DNA of 64,000 nt from Hymenobacter duratus (GTDB taxonomy: Bacteria; Bacteroidota; Bacteroidia; Cytophagales; Hymenobacteraceae): contig NZ_JACWZZ010000002.1 of the NCBI RefSeq assembly GCF_014698995.1, positions 310,001 through 374,000 of the forward strand, given 5' to 3'. The notes below the pieces were generated by a model. The model saw only the letters and a list, made by a program, of their open reading frames with translations, did not search any database and was not told the DNA's origin. The stretch's first letter is position 1. Each line of letters opens with the position of its first letter. A program made the translations under genes and the position numbers. Shown in pieces: positions 52,766-59,311 of the stretch.

Positions 52766-53182
52766 ATGAACTCCAAGCCCTCTAACGCCTTCGTTGCGGC
52801 CTCGTGGCTGGCGCTGCTGGCCGGTATGTCTGCCTTCGTCATTGGCCTCTGGAATGCCCAGATGCTGCTCAATGAGAAAGGCTACTACTTTACGGTGCTC
52901 ATGTACGGACTCTTTTCGGCCATTTCGCTCCAGAAATCAGTCCGCGACCAGCTGGAAGGCATTCCCGTCACGAGCATCTACTACGGCCTGAGCTGGTTTT
53001 CCACCATCCTCGCAATAGGGTTACTAACTGTTGGCTTGTGGAACGCGACGCTCCTGCTGAGCGAAAAAGGCTTCTATGCCATGTCATTTATGCTGGCCCT
53101 ATTCGGAGCTATTGCGGTGCAGAAAAATACCCGTGATACACGCGGCGTAGCCAATAACACGCCGGAAACCCCGGTTTCGTAG
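52766..53182 (+). CDS. YiaA/YiaB-family inner-membrane protein
   Basis: The 138-residue protein has four membrane helices in two repeated halves: [29 protein letters not shown], then [29 protein letters not shown]. The internal duplication and the GLWNA-x-x-LL-x-EKG motif identify the YiaA/YiaB family. Function is not known. Start ATG 52766 is preferred to an upstream in-frame start that would add an unrelated leader. Confidence 0.9.
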
Positions 53183-55026: not shown

Positions 55027-55620
55027 GTGAGTAAAGCACTTTTCTGGCTGTTGGCGCTACCGTTTTCCAGTCTTGCCCAAGGCGGCATCAACGGCAAACG
55101 CCTGCTGCCGCTTGATTCTGCCTATGCCGTGCACGGAGTGCCGTTGGGAGCCGCAGAAGGCACCATAGCAACTCTACGGCCGCAATTTTCCGGCACCGGC
55201 AAACGCTGGAAAACCAGCCGGGTATATGGTCTTCTTCCTGAAGCCGACACCGTGACGGTAGCAGGCCAGCCAGTGCATCCGGCATTCTGGTTTCGGGGCG
55301 GCAGGTTTATCGGCGTCACGTACCAGTTCAAGAAGGAGCAGAAAACCCGCCTTGTTTTGCAGAACCTGACTCGCCAGTATGGGCCACCCAAACCCGGCAA
55401 CGTGGCCGGCATGTGGTACTGGCTGGGGCAGCGCACCTACATCCTGTATGAAGATGCGCTGCCTGATGTGGCGTTGCACGTAGCCAGCCTGGATATGCTC
55501 AATGAGCAGGTGATAGAAACGGCCGTCCGGCAGGAAGCCCGGCAGCGGCTGGGCTGGCAGCCCGATTCGCTGGGCTTACCGCGCCAGTTTGCTCTTCCCG
55601 GCGAGAAAAAGAAGAAGTAA
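55027..55620 (+). CDS. Hypothetical secreted protein coupled to bioF
   Basis: The 197-residue frame ends TAATG, overlapping the bioF ATG by one base. A signal peptide ends SSLAQ. The mature part has LPLDSAYAVHGVPLGAAEG, TLRPQFSG, FWFRGGRFIGVTYQF and TYILYEDALPDVALH. I do not recognise the family. The start is uncertain: GTG at 55027 opens the signal peptide directly after the bioB terminator; a GTG eight codons earlier also is possible. Translational overlap with bioF suggests joint expression, though a biotin role is unproven. Confidence 0.6.
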   Translation: MSKALFWLLALPFSSLAQGGINGKRLLPLDSAYAVHGVPLGAAEGTIATLRPQFSGTGKRWKTSRVYGLLPEADTVTVAGQPVHPAFWFRGGRFIGVTYQFKKEQKTRLVLQNLTRQYGPPKPGNVAGMWYWLGQRTYILYEDALPDVALHVASLDMLNEQVIETAVRQEARQRLGWQPDSLGLPRQFALPGEKKKK

Positions 55621-56768
55621 TGTCCTCCCCTCTCCACCAGCGTCTGCAGGAAGAATTAGGTCGGCGCGAAGCCGCCGGCACCCGCCGCCGCCTGCCTCCC
55701 CCGCCCGCCCCCGGCCTCGTCGATTTCAGCTCTAACGACTACCTGGGGCTAAGCCGGCACCCGCAGGTACGGGCAGCAGTGCAGGCCGCCGCCCACGCGC
55801 CCGCCGGCAGCACCGGCTCGCGCCTGCTCACCGGCAACTCCGCCGCCGCTGAAGCCTTAGAAATCCATCTGGCTCGTTTCCACCGCGCCGAAGCCGCGCT
55901 GCTGTTCAACTCGGGCTACGCGGCCAACCTGGGTTTCTTCGCCGCCGTGCCCAAGCGCGGCGACACGATTCTCTACGACGCCGCCTCCCACGCCTCCGTG
56001 AAGGAAGGCATCCGGGGCTCGTTTGCCACCGCCTGGAGCTTCCGCCACAACGATGTGGCCGACCTGCGCCGCAAGCTGGCCCGCGCCACCGGCAGCGTAT
56101 TCGTGGCCGTGGAGGCATTGTACTCGATGGATGGCGACATGGCTCCGCTGGCCGAGTTGGCCGAGGTGTGCCGGGAGCAGGGCCTGTATCTGGTGGTGGA
56201 TGAGGCCCACACCAACGGCCTCTACGGCCCCCAGGGCGAAGGTTTGGTGGTGGAGCTGGGACTGGAAGAGGCGGTATTCGCCCGCATCCTCACCTTCGGC
56301 AAGGCCCTGGGCAGCCAGGGCGCCGCCGTGGCCGGCCCCGCCGTGCTGCGCGACTACCTGCTGAGCTTCAGCCGGCCCTTCATCTACACCACGGCCTTGC
56401 CTCCGCTCACGGTGGCGGCCCTCACGGCTGCCTACGCGGTGCTGCCCGACCTCGGCCCGGAGCGCGCCCGGCTGTTTGCCCTCTCTGACTACCTGAAAGC
56501 CCGCTTGAACACCGTACCCAGCCTGCATGTGCCTCCCGAAAGCCACGTGATTCACCCAATATTCTTCGCTGATTCCCCCGGCCCGGCCCACGTGCGCGCT
56601 GTGGCCACCGCCGCCCAGGCCGCCGGTTTTGACGTGCGCGCCATCGTTTCGCCGACTGTGCCCGTAGGTACCGAGCGGCTGCGGCTCATCATCCATTCGT
56701 ATACTACCAAGGCTGAAATTGACGCACTGGCAGCCGTGCTGGAACACGTGGTAGCTCCCGAACGATAA
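55620..56768 (+). CDS. bioF: 8-amino-7-oxononanoate synthase
   Basis: The 382-residue protein is a PLP-dependent alpha-oxoamine synthase. Key segments are DFSSNDYLGLSRHP, STGSRLLTGNS, YDAASHASVKEGIRGS, LVVDEAHTNGLYGPQG and LTFGKALGSQGA with the PLP-binding Lys228. It joins pimeloyl-ACP or -CoA to alanine to form KAPA. The ATG overlaps the preceding stop (TAATG). BioF, BioA, BioD and BioB are all encoded within this 7-kb stretch. Confidence 0.96.
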   Translation: MSSPLHQRLQEELGRREAAGTRRRLPPPPAPGLVDFSSNDYLGLSRHPQVRAAVQAAAHAPAGSTGSRLLTGNSAAAEALEIHLARFHRAEAALLFNSGYAANLGFFAAVPKRGDTILYDAASHASVKEGIRGSFATAWSFRHNDVADLRRKLARATGSVFVAVEALYSMDGDMAPLAELAEVCREQGLYLVVDEAHTNGLYGPQGEGLVVELGLEEAVFARILTFGKALGSQGAAVAGPAVLRDYLLSFSRPFIYTTALPPLTVAALTAAYAVLPDLGPERARLFALSDYLKARLNTVPSLHVPPESHVIHPIFFADSPGPAHVRAVATAAQAAGFDVRAIVSPTVPVGTERLRLIIHSYTTKAEIDALAAVLEHVVAPER

Positions 56769-56844: not shown

Positions 56845-57417
56845 ATGCTACCAGCCGACGCCTTACTCCTGCACATCGGGCAATACATCCGGGTTTCGGA
56901 GCCGTTGCGGACGGCCTTGCTGGAACGGGTGCAGGCGGCCAGCTACAATAAGGGCGAGCTACTGCACGATGCCCGGCGCGTATGTACCCGCAGCGACTTT
57001 ATTCAGCGAGGACTCGTGCGCTTATATTACCAGCACGACGGTGAGAAGATAACCGAGTATTTCAGCGCCGAGGGTGAATGGGTAAACTCGCCGAACAGCC
57101 TGGTTAAGCAAACCCCGGACATCTACTACCTTGAGGCACTGGAGCCCACACAGACTCTGAGTCTGCACATGCGGGACTTGGGCTACCTGTTCGACAACTT
57201 TCCGGAAATGGAACGCTACGCCAGGCTGTCCATGGGGTCGGTTTTCGGGCATCTGATGGACCGCATTACCTCGTTGCGCTTCACCTCCGCCCGGGAAAAA
57301 TACGAGCATTTCTGCCGCACTCACCACGATATTCTACATCGGTTGCCGCTGGGCATGGTGGCTTCCTACCTGGGCATTACGCAGGAAACGCTGAGCCGCA
57401 TTCGGGCCGCGCGGTGA
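56845..57417 (+). CDS. Crp/Fnr-family transcriptional regulator
   Basis: The 190-residue protein has a cyclic-nucleotide-binding-like domain (IGQYIRVSEPLRTALLERV, FIQRGLVRLYYQHDG, ITEYFSAEGEWVNS) and a C-terminal winged HTH (LPLGMVASYLGITQETLSRIRAA). No Cys cluster of the FNR type is seen. It lies between bioF and a secreted hydrolase gene and probably controls the latter: an FNR-like box is found 5 bp after its stop. Start ATG 56845 is chosen over an upstream in-frame codon at 56809. Confidence 0.93.
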   Translation: MLPADALLLHIGQYIRVSEPLRTALLERVQAASYNKGELLHDARRVCTRSDFIQRGLVRLYYQHDGEKITEYFSAEGEWVNSPNSLVKQTPDIYYLEALEPTQTLSLHMRDLGYLFDNFPEMERYARLSMGSVFGHLMDRITSLRFTSAREKYEHFCRTHHDILHRLPLGMVASYLGITQETLSRIRAAR

Positions 57418-57421
57418 TTAT

Positions 57422-57435
57422 TTGATCTATGTCAA
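57422..57435 (+). promoter_or_regulatory. FNR/CRP-like box upstream of secreted hydrolase
   Basis: TTGAT-CTAT-GTCAA matches the FNR/CRP-family consensus TTGAT-N4-ATCAA with one mismatch. Downstream, CACCTTTG at 57459-57466 is near the Bacteroidota -7 box, placing a start near 57470 and the box centre about 41 bp upstream, the usual class II activator position. No -33 box is visible, as in activated promoters. Confidence 0.6.
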
Positions 57436-57491
57436 AGAGTAGGGAGGATGGTTCGGACCACCTTTGCAGAAACCCGTAACCAACTCCTGCC

Positions 57492-58343
57492 ATGCGCCAG
57501 CTTCTGCTTCCAGTCGCGTTTTTTCTGTTCTTGCTGCTTTCAGCTGCTTCCGTTCTTTCAGCACCCATTGACCTGAAGACACCCGGCGTGCAGAGCCTGC
57601 TATACGTGGGCGCCGGCCGGCAGCAGCCGCTGCTGGTAGGCTTGGGCGGCTCAGAAGGCGGTAATGCCTGGGCCAGTTCCCGTTGGCAGCCCACTCGTGA
57701 GCAACTGGTGGCCGATGGCTACGCTTTTTTGGCACTAGGGTATTTCAAAGCTGACGGTACCCCGCCCCTGCTCGACCGTATTTCGCTCGACACGGTGTAC
57801 GCGGCTATTAAGGCGGCCACCCGGCACCCACAAGTCAACGGCCGCAAAATCGCGCTGATTGGTGGTTCGCGCGGCGCCGACTTGGCGTTGCTGCTGGCCA
57901 GTCGCTACCCCGATATCCGCTGCGTGGTGAGCATTGTGGGCAGCCATGTTGCATTTCCGGGCCACACCAGCCACTTCACCACTTCGGCTTGGTCGTACAA
58001 GGGCCAGCAGCTACCATTTGTGCCCGTGAATGAAGCCGCCGTGCCCTTTCTGTTGCAGGGTAATCTGCGGGCTGCGTTTGCGGCCATGCTCACCGACACA
58101 GCCGCGGTCCGACAGGCATTGATTCCGGTGGCAAAAATTCGGGGCGCGGTGCTGCTGGTATCGGCTACTCAGGATGAGGTGTGCCCTTCCACGCTCATGG
58201 CGGAGCACATGCTGGACCAACTGCAGCGCCGCAACTCTCGCTATCCGCAGCAGCACCTAGCCATTGAAGGCGGGCACGCCGCGCCGCTAAAGCACTTTCC
58301 TGCCATCATTCGCTTTCTGCACACGAACTTTCCGGCTCGATAG
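57492..58343 (+). CDS. Secreted alpha/beta hydrolase (acyl-CoA thioesterase/BAAT-like)
   Basis: The 283-residue protein has a signal peptide (MRQLLLPVAFFLFLLLSAASVL...). The hydrolase shows LLVGLGGSEGGNAWASS, KIALIGGSRGADLALLLASR with the nucleophile Ser, SATQDEVCPSTLMAE with an acidic residue, and EGGHAAPLKHFP with the catalytic His. The GGSRGA nucleophile elbow and the layout suggest the BAAT/acyl-CoA thioester hydrolase group. Substrate unknown; export argues against a BioH-like role. It is downstream of the Crp/Fnr gene and box. Confidence 0.82.
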   Translation: MRQLLLPVAFFLFLLLSAASVLSAPIDLKTPGVQSLLYVGAGRQQPLLVGLGGSEGGNAWASSRWQPTREQLVADGYAFLALGYFKADGTPPLLDRISLDTVYAAIKAATRHPQVNGRKIALIGGSRGADLALLLASRYPDIRCVVSIVGSHVAFPGHTSHFTTSAWSYKGQQLPFVPVNEAAVPFLLQGNLRAAFAAMLTDTAAVRQALIPVAKIRGAVLLVSATQDEVCPSTLMAEHMLDQLQRRNSRYPQQHLAIEGGHAAPLKHFPAIIRFLHTNFPAR

Positions 58344-58382: not shown

Positions 58383-59003
58383 TTGGAACGACTCTTCATC
58401 ACCGGCATCGGAACCGACGTAGGCAAAACCTTTGTTTCCGCCATTCTCACCGAAGCCCTGCAGGCCGACTACTGGAAGCCCGTGCAGGCCGGCCTCACCC
58501 CCACCACCGACGCGGCCACCGTGCGCAGCCTCGTGCAGAACCCCGTCAGCCGCTTCTGGCCCGAGCGGCACCGGCTGCAGCTGCCCGCCTCGCCCCACGC
58601 CGCCGCCGCCGCCGAGGGCCTCACCCTGCGCCCCGAGGATTTCCAGCTGCCCGCCACCGACAACCACCTGCTGGTGGAAGGCGCGGGCGGCCTGCTGGTG
58701 CCCCTGGCCCGCGACTTCCTGCTGGCCGATCTGGCCCAGCAATTCGCCCTCGATGTGGTAGTCGTATCGCGCAACTACCTGGGCAGCATCAACCACACGC
58801 TGCTCACGCTGGAAGCCCTGCAGGCCCGCGGCCTGCGCGTGCGTGGCCTCGTGTTCAACGGTGAGCCCACGCCCGCCACCGAGGACTTCATTCAGCAGCA
58901 CACCGGCGTCCCCCTTATGCCCCGCATCCTCCCCGAGCCCGAGGTAACGCCCGCCGTAGTCAGCCGCTATGCCGCCGAGTTCCGGGCGTGGTTTGGGCTG
59001 TAG
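58383..59003 (+). CDS. bioD: Dethiobiotin synthetase
   Basis: The 206-residue protein begins MERLFITGIGTDVGKTFVSA, with the BioD P-loop GTDVGKT. It continues YWKPVQAGL, LVEGAGGLLVPL and VVVSRNYLGSINHTLLTLE. It forms the ureido ring with CO2 and ATP. The start is TTG at 58383: no ATG or GTG occurs in frame for a good distance upstream. It lies 39 bp after the hydrolase gene; a repeat of about 260 bp separates it from bioA. Confidence 0.95.
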   Translation: MERLFITGIGTDVGKTFVSAILTEALQADYWKPVQAGLTPTTDAATVRSLVQNPVSRFWPERHRLQLPASPHAAAAAEGLTLRPEDFQLPATDNHLLVEGAGGLLVPLARDFLLADLAQQFALDVVVVSRNYLGSINHTLLTLEALQARGLRVRGLVFNGEPTPATEDFIQQHTGVPLMPRILPEPEVTPAVVSRYAAEFRAWFGL

Positions 59004-59020
59004 AAACCGGCTGTCATAGT

Positions 59021-59279
59021 GTAGAGACGCAACATCTTGCGTCTCGTCGTTGAACGATTGGCGTGCTGGCACCCTCACTCAACGGCTATTCTGTTAGTAT
59101 CGAAGAATCCGAAGATTTAAAGAACGTCATGCTGAGCTTTTCGAAGCATCTCTACCGCTTCGCTTGAGCTATTTTCAACGAAGCGGTAGAGATGCTTCGA
59201 AAAGCTCAGCATGACGGGCTACAGGCGTTCTGGCGCTGCAACATCAGCAACGACGAGACGCAAGATATTGCGTCTCTAC
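59021..59279. repeat. Nested double-palindrome repeat between bioD and bioA, copy 2
   Basis: Outer arms at 59021-59052 and 59248-59279 are complementary at 31 of 32 positions (TAGAGACGCAA.../...TTGCGTCTCTA). An inner pair of 37-bp arms, 59126-59162 and 59179-59215, is perfect (GTCATGCTGAGC.../...GCTCAGCATGAC) with a 16-base loop. The inner sequence is shared in part with copies 1 and 3 (GAAGCATCTCTACCGCTT). No coding potential. Confidence 0.88.
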
Positions 59280-59311
59280 ACCTGCCAAACCACCGCCCGC
59301 GTGCCCGGTTG

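Follow-up and report, generated by a model that had tools for sequence, protein, structure and literature searches.

A short Crp/Fnr-type regulator, its candidate activator box and an adjacent hydrolase gene form a recurring cassette in Bacteroidota

Introduction

Two genes lie between bioF and bioD in the 64,000-nucleotide stretch of Hymenobacter duratus DNA analysed here, referred to below as the window. One (REG) encodes a regulator of Crp/Fnr type and the other (HYD) a hydrolase, with a candidate activator box between them. Does the regulator control the gene beside it, and does the pair belong to the biotin locus in which it stands?

Results

Anatomy of the pair

The succession of regulator, box, promoter element and hydrolase gene is confirmed (Table 1). 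A preliminary description had placed the box 5 bp past the regulator stop, where we compute 4 bp, and about 41 bp from a transcription start near 57470. With TAnnTTTG taken as positions -12 to -5, the convention for Flavobacterium psychrophilum in PMC9723704, the predicted start is 57471 and the predicted box centre -42.5, close to those values. The -7 element CACCTTTG differs from TAnnTTTG at one position, -12. Its TTTG is separated by 27 bp from the core box TTGATCTATGTCAA and is followed after a gap of 25 nt by the start of HYD.

Table 1. Features of the regulator-hydrolase pair and its neighbours (window coordinates)
Feature	Position	Strand	Remarks
bioF, left neighbour of the pair	55620..56768	+	TIGR00858, 336.3 bits, below cut-off 426.45
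REG, short wingless Crp/Fnr-type regulator	56845..57417	+	190 aa; ATG 56845, stop 57415-57417
Candidate activator box, palindromic 16-mer TTTGATCTATGTCAAA	57421..57436	+	extends TTGATCTATGTCAA
Core box TTGATCTATGTCAA	57422-57435	+	4 bp past REG stop
-7 promoter element CACCTTTG	57459..57466	+	Bacteroidota sigma-A, consensus TAnnTTTG
Predicted transcription start	57471	+	inferred from TAnnTTTG = -12 to -5 (PMC9723704)
HYD, alpha/beta hydrolase, BAAT_C family, probably exported	57492..58343	+	283 aa
bioD, right neighbour of the pair	58383..59003	+	TIGR00347, 127.8 bits, cut-off 83.3

The composite (box at 8/10 or better, 25-28 bp, TTTG) occurs once on the two strands of the window, and a loose pattern, TTGATNNNNATCAA with one mismatch allowed, gives 2 matches where 0.66 are expected. 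The whole genome holds 2 exact composites with 26/27 bp, and the reversed control 1, so a single copy could be a chance occurrence. We take the REG-HYD composite as real because it is kept in all seven pairs found in the genus.

The pair inside and outside the biotin locus

Among 120 genomes of the genus there are seven matches to REG at 59% identity or more, and HYD adjoins every one. The box and the 26-27 bp to TTTG are kept in 7/7 of these pairs, so the class II activator geometry proposed from the window is supported by comparison. Four pairs lie between bioF and bioD; the other three (G092, G024, G073) lie elsewhere, with bio genes absent within ~3 kb. A search of relatives with or without flanking bio genes, suggested in the preliminary description, finds both kinds, and the idea of an inserted module agrees with a pair that is kept inside and outside the bio locus. 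Box versus spacer identity across the seven pairs was set aside as evidence: the sites had been picked by the motif, which makes the comparison circular. Four regulators at 51-52% identity (G096, G105, G077 and the second copy of G022) carry TTGATTGYAATCAA with 26-27 bp to TTTG, and their target is a different gene, for a membrane protein; two of these proteins were compared with Pfam and matched no family.

To see how the bioF-bioD interval is occupied, we took the 67 genomes that match bioD and examined the best 30. The pair is present at 4 of these 30 bioD loci. At 23, bioF lies upstream without the pair, at a gap of 160-1253 bp (measured to bioD from where the bioF match ends), and at 3 no bioF was found within 1.5 kb. 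Because 4/30 hold the pair and 23/30 have bioF at 160-1253 bp, the interval is, as judged from gene order, a variable slot holding an inserted pair and not an otherwise tight operon that was broken. The earlier view that the pair interrupts the biotin gene order holds for its position between bioF and bioD. Given the range of gaps at the 23 loci without the pair (within L203-L232), the slot seems to gather different cargo genes.

The GC fractions of REG (0.581) and HYD (0.609) are below those of bioB, bioF, bioD and bioA (0.652-0.691). Of these four, bioB, bioD and bioA score above their NCBIfam cut-offs, and bioF has TIGR00858 as its best model, below cut-off. The interval between bioD and bioA contains two nested inverted repeats (59019-59281), resembling a small non-autonomous mobile element; the inner arms are 59125-59162 and 59179-59216 (38 nt, 100%), the outer arms 59019-59052 and 59248-59281 (34 nt, 97%). 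The REG-HYD pair shows no evident link to biotin and is found, as one unit, at different sites.

A fixed step from box to promoter across the phylum

Of 395 genomes from the phylum, 203 contain relatives of the regulator, as found with a profile of 18 regulators and a limit of eight scored candidates per genome. A scan of the collection identified 80 named loci, among them loci from Flavobacterium, Chitinophaga, Dyadobacter, Pedobacter, Gelidibacter and others; its patterns included ETLSR, which the profile search did not use. HYD lies downstream of the regulator at 30 of the 80 loci, two of them genus pairs already counted. A strict box with TTTG at 26/27 bp is found in 25 of these 30 pairs, a box with TTTA in place of TTTG in 2 (L082, L094), and an altered right half-site in 3 (L071, L072, L083; helix STLSR). 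Bio genes appear in the fetched flanks of one of the 80 loci, L062 (H. elongatus), which is one of the four bioF-bioD pairs.

Pooling of 244 loci gave 248 regulators, 241 of them distinct, with close relatives still included. When perfect palindromes for these 241 were counted free of any motif, 48 lay at 26 bp from TTTG, 6 at 27 and 3 at 25, with 0-4 at each remaining spacing from 6 to 46. Among the 130 distinct regulators with an ETLSR helix, 101 have TTGA-N6-TCAA downstream with TTTG at 26 (89) or 27 (12) bp; the remaining spacings between 0 and 56 bp together account for 25, with a maximum of 5 at any one. The strict composite is absent within 300 bp in the remaining 29, some of which have a box without TTTG and some no box, and three of which have it farther downstream (L134, L136, L137). 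The arrangement is also oriented: the composite lies downstream on the same strand in 101/130 and upstream of the regulator in 2/130, the upstream region being approximate in this count. The box starts at most 30 bp past the regulator stop in 84 of the 101, and in 22 before the end of the reading frame. In the 120 genus genomes the 26/27-bp composite occurs 289 times, against 122 for a 30/31-bp control and 120 for the reversed one; roughly four in ten exact composites in the genus may therefore be background, and a single unlinked composite is not to be trusted.

In 87 aligned family promoters with the 26-bp step, A stands at -11 with a frequency of 0.97, although TTTG alone had been selected, and -12 is T (0.46) or C (0.30). 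No TTG is present at -33 in this alignment. To judge from base composition, the pattern is as expected of an activator-dependent sigma-A promoter. The predicted box centre in the 26-bp members, with the start placed by the same convention, is -41.5.

The regulator and its relatives

REG ends in GITQETLSRIRAAR followed directly by the stop. Its assignment to the Crp/Fnr group, made earlier from the translation, agrees with a match to PF00027, the cNMP-binding jelly-roll sensor domain, that lies below cut-off (24.0 bits, cut-off 27.5) and with Foldseek matches to NtcA, CRP and FNR structures, which rank after the best match, 3dn7. PF00027 is matched at E 0.01 by all members of two sets, 18/18 (A1) and 25/25 (A2), which share REG and one relative; at the same E, none of the 18 and none of the 25 matches a Pfam Crp-type HTH (PF13545 or PF00325). 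In an AlphaFold2 model of REG (pLDDT 92.3), the last element is predicted to be a helix, residues 180-188. The stop follows directly, 5 residues past LSR, so the modelled protein has no wing. Such an ending is common, with 5 or 6 residues after LSR in 139 of 221 relatives. The E and R of the recognition helix, at the positions of CRP 181 and 185, are E181 and R185 in REG and invariant in A1.

The nearest solved relative of REG, by sequence and by fold, is 3dn7, a 194-aa 'cyclic nucleotide binding regulatory protein' of Cytophaga hutchinsonii (E 1.8e-19 with the single sequence, 2.5e-39 with the profile). It has the same short layout. Its helix, in contrast to that of REG, ends in PEYLSEIR, and its site may differ from TTGAT.

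The oxygen-sensing Fe-S protein FNR has four cysteine ligands. REG has only two cysteines, at 47 and 157 (relatives have 0-7), and therefore lacks the four-cysteine cluster of FNR. Among the 25 HYD-linked regulators aligned, C47, W79, N81, S82, P83, Y94 and others are invariant, and this invariance suggests that one conserved ligand is recognized. L093, whose regulator end is out of frame, and L095, which is partial, were omitted from this alignment and retained for that of HYD.

The genome contains four REG-type regulators: REG, L002, L003 and L004. The helix is ETLSR in REG and L004, VSLSR in L002 and ESLSR in L003. L004 (G000:C1:256880-257293) has a box, TTGCGTGAAATCAA, that scores 8/10 and lies 26 bp from TTTG; its open frame of 202 codons ends right after ETLSRLR, and the gene may, on this reading of the frame, be intact. 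L002 has a 4/6 palindrome at 27 bp. Near L003 no convincing box was found.

HYD and the targets of related regulators

HYD matches PF08840 with 87.6 bits (cut-off 20.9). Ser126, Asp228 and His262 are invariant in an alignment of 27 rows, from which L070, L073, L081 and L086 were omitted because a complete ATG-started frame was not found. The protein is probably exported, as its hydrophobic N terminus, the basis of this prediction, would indicate. The catalytic domain of human ACOT4 and ACOT2 (PDB 3k2i and 3hlk; BAAT_C) is matched by HYD at E 1.9e-15 and 1.6e-12, and also in fold. HYD differs from these enzymes in its signal-like N terminus and in its length, 283 aa against 422 and 446.

The targets of the family fall into 111 clusters. 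Of these, 84 were compared with Pfam and 27 left out, 25 of the latter being HYD homologues. The 84 diverse targets include 64 Pfam families, among them outer membrane efflux protein (8), fatty acid hydroxylase (8), DoxX-like (6), glyoxalase (5), small multidrug resistance (5), MFS (4), YiaAB (4) and DUF998 (4). Detoxification, efflux and changes to the membrane are the common theme, which suggests that the inducers are small molecules. The start of each target was set at the first ATG that opens a sufficiently long frame, and some starts may be misplaced.

Leaderless mRNA was considered as a general feature and rejected, as the gap after TTTG is 7 nt or less in 6 of 133 targets and 25 nt at HYD. 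In the membrane-protein targets of L058, L059, L060 and L061, the start is 4 nt past TTTG, which would put the start codon at +1 of a leaderless mRNA. By eye these targets had been labelled Lnt-like (apolipoprotein N-acyltransferase); the label was dropped, since the two tested matched no Pfam family. The window itself encodes a YiaAB protein (52766-53182; PF05360, 144.5 bits), whose family is elsewhere often among the targets of ETLSR regulators. No composite was found near this gene.

The recognition helix and the half-site

Classic work on CAP reportedly found that changes of E181 alter half-site preference. We compared the residue at this position with the adjacent half-sites, which were chosen by palindromy and spacing and not by sequence. 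Regulators lacking such a site were excluded: 46 of 173 with E, 2 of 25 with V, 3 of 9 with R, 5 of 9 with Q, and 3 of 14 with S, T or Y together. With E, TTGAT or TTGAC makes up 209 of 254 half-sites; with V, TTAAC, TTATC or TTTAC makes up 43 of 46; with Q, TTAAC or TGAAC all 8; with R, AGGAC 6 of 12; and with S, T and Y together, TTGCC only 7 of 22, so that exceptions to the pattern do occur. At half-site position 3, the counts for G are 97/12 with E and 7/15 with non-E, for sites in which at least 5 of the 6 pairs match (Fisher p 7.5e-8, a value that ignores the relatedness of the rows). A tree built without the recognition helix (172 rows) contains 3 supported independent pairs, too few for significance, and 19 of 27 ESLSR regulators lack a palindrome with at least 5 matching pairs at 26/27 bp. 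The recognition code is thus a class-level pattern and not an established rule: regulators with other helices tend toward other boxes at the same spacing.

Discussion

A probable dedicated activator and the alternatives

We think it quite probable that REG is a dedicated, ligand-responsive class II activator of the single adjacent gene HYD, in a cassette that recurs. Starting from the observed anatomy, conservation, spacing, orientation and linkage, we propose the following course of events. A REG dimer would bind TTTGATCTATGTCAAA, which begins right after REG's own gene, and recruit sigma-A RNA polymerase to the -7 element CACCTTTG. Centred at about -42.5 on the predicted start, the box would stand in for the -33 element that the promoter lacks, the arrangement of class II Crp/Fnr promoters. 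Recruitment would switch on HYD, a BAAT/acyl-thioesterase-like serine hydrolase that is probably exported. By analogy with the other targets of the regulator family (efflux pump, glyoxalase, hydroxylase), a toxic or lipophilic small molecule is the probable inducer, perhaps the substrate of HYD.

A box centred at -42.5 could also serve repression. REG would then block RNA polymerase at this position until a ligand releases it; the box overlaps the region of a would-be -33 element, and in other phyla genes for efflux and detoxification are often under local repressors. We consider this unlikely, as the family promoters, without TTG at -33, look weak unaided, and as repression does not require a step fixed at 26-27 bp. 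It is also quite unlikely that REG adjoins the box by accident and that the main user is another Crp/Fnr protein, either a global FNR-like regulator or the paralogue L004. The classic FNR box is TTGAT-N4-ATCAA, TTGATTnnnnTCAAGG composites recur in genus genomes, and L004, which shares the ETLSR helix with REG, could in principle bind REG's box. Against this stand the linkage in 101 of 130 ETLSR regulators, the candidate site that L004 has of its own, and the tendency of differing helices to adjoin differing boxes at the same spacing.

A functional part in the biotin locus, for example in regulating the locus or acting on a pimeloyl thioester, would fit the position of the four closest pairs, all between bioF and bioD, and the resemblance of HYD to acyl-CoA thioesterases. 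We regard it as highly unlikely: around the remaining three genus pairs bio genes are absent for ~3 kb, L062 is the only one of the 80 phylum loci with bio genes in its fetched flanks, bioF occurs without the pair in 23 of 30 bioD loci (best 30 of 67), and HYD looks exported. It is scarcely credible that two ordinary genes have the box and the -7 element between them by chance. The loose box is expected 0.66 times per window, and the genome has 2 exact composites against 1 in the reversed control, but conservation in 7/7 genus pairs and the phylum-wide peak in spacing are not what chance would give.

Relation to known systems

In the class II activators CRP and FNR of E. coli, the box is centred near -41.5. 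REG shares with these proteins a palindromic box with an FNR-like TTGAT half-site, the E...R recognition helix, a sensor domain of cNMP fold and a box position of -41.5 to -42.5, which for REG is predicted. It differs in the absence of a wing, in the lack of a Pfam Crp HTH match among the members scanned, in a layout with one adjacent target instead of a regulon, and in a promoter of TAnnTTTG type. Within the phylum, BT4338 (Crp) of Bacteroides thetaiotaomicron is likewise a predicted Crp-family activator; in contrast to REG, it is described in the available part of PMC3878776 with a global sugar regulon and a 22-bp TATGTT...AACATA motif, not with a one-gene adjacent cassette. CrpR1 of Riemerella anatipestifer (Flavobacteriales; 179-197 aa) is described as a short CRP-type protein; the version in most strains is described as being without an HTH motif, and the available text of PMC13277301 does not describe an adjacent box-target layout.

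A 2025 survey of CRP/FNR DNA-binding domains names R180, E181 and R185 as conserved base contacts and admitted proteins with both PF00027 and PF13545 (PMC12531629). Because PF13545 was required and the members scanned do not match it, REG-type proteins probably fall outside that set. The superfamily is the same, and the REG branch differs in that the E181 position varies.

No description of the layout of regulator, box, promoter and target was found in the open-licence literature, in a search whose wording partly missed the spelling 'Crp/Fnr'. What may be new is the invariant local grammar, with a possible recognition code. We lean slightly towards a broader proposal, that Bacteroidota contain many mutually insulated, self-contained activator cassettes. 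Each would consist of a wingless Crp/Fnr regulator, its own box at or overlapping the gene end, an invariant 26-27-bp step to a sigma-A TTTG, and a single neighbouring gene for detoxification or the envelope. Insulation would come from a readable code, with the half-site set by the amino acid that stands where CRP has E181: mostly TTGAT/TTGAC for E, TTAAC/TTATC/TTTAC for V, AGGAC for R, TTAAC/TGAAC for Q, and often TTGCC for S, T or Y. The family would be one that escapes the usual Crp HTH models.

A rule of this kind, read from sequence, would predict for many uncharacterised Bacteroidota regulators which gene they act on, where they bind, which promoter they use and roughly where transcription starts, and would be useful in a phylum where transcription is poorly mapped. 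The linkage of one regulator to one site is a natural data set for deriving a code of Crp/Fnr recognition, and compact inducible switches for Bacteroidota could be built from the cassettes. In the window, what otherwise resembles a random insertion in a biotin locus is given a regulator, a promoter and a role that is likely of the detoxification type.

Composites and boxes were also seen at other places. A second exact composite in the H. duratus genome, with the 26-bp step, lies at G000:C1:1461398-1461441 (L172) and reads TTGAAATATGTCAA. Another, TTGATTnnnnTCAAGGTTTGG...ACCTTTG with 26 bp to TTTG, recurs in the genus (G005:C3:452681, G015:C1:1345135, G039:C8:438129) and may be the promoter of a further conserved regulon of FNR-like type. 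At L017, boxes lie on both sides of the regulator (1485-1498 and 2080-2093), and one of them has a TTTG 26 bp away on either side, which may make it a divergent double promoter with autoregulation.
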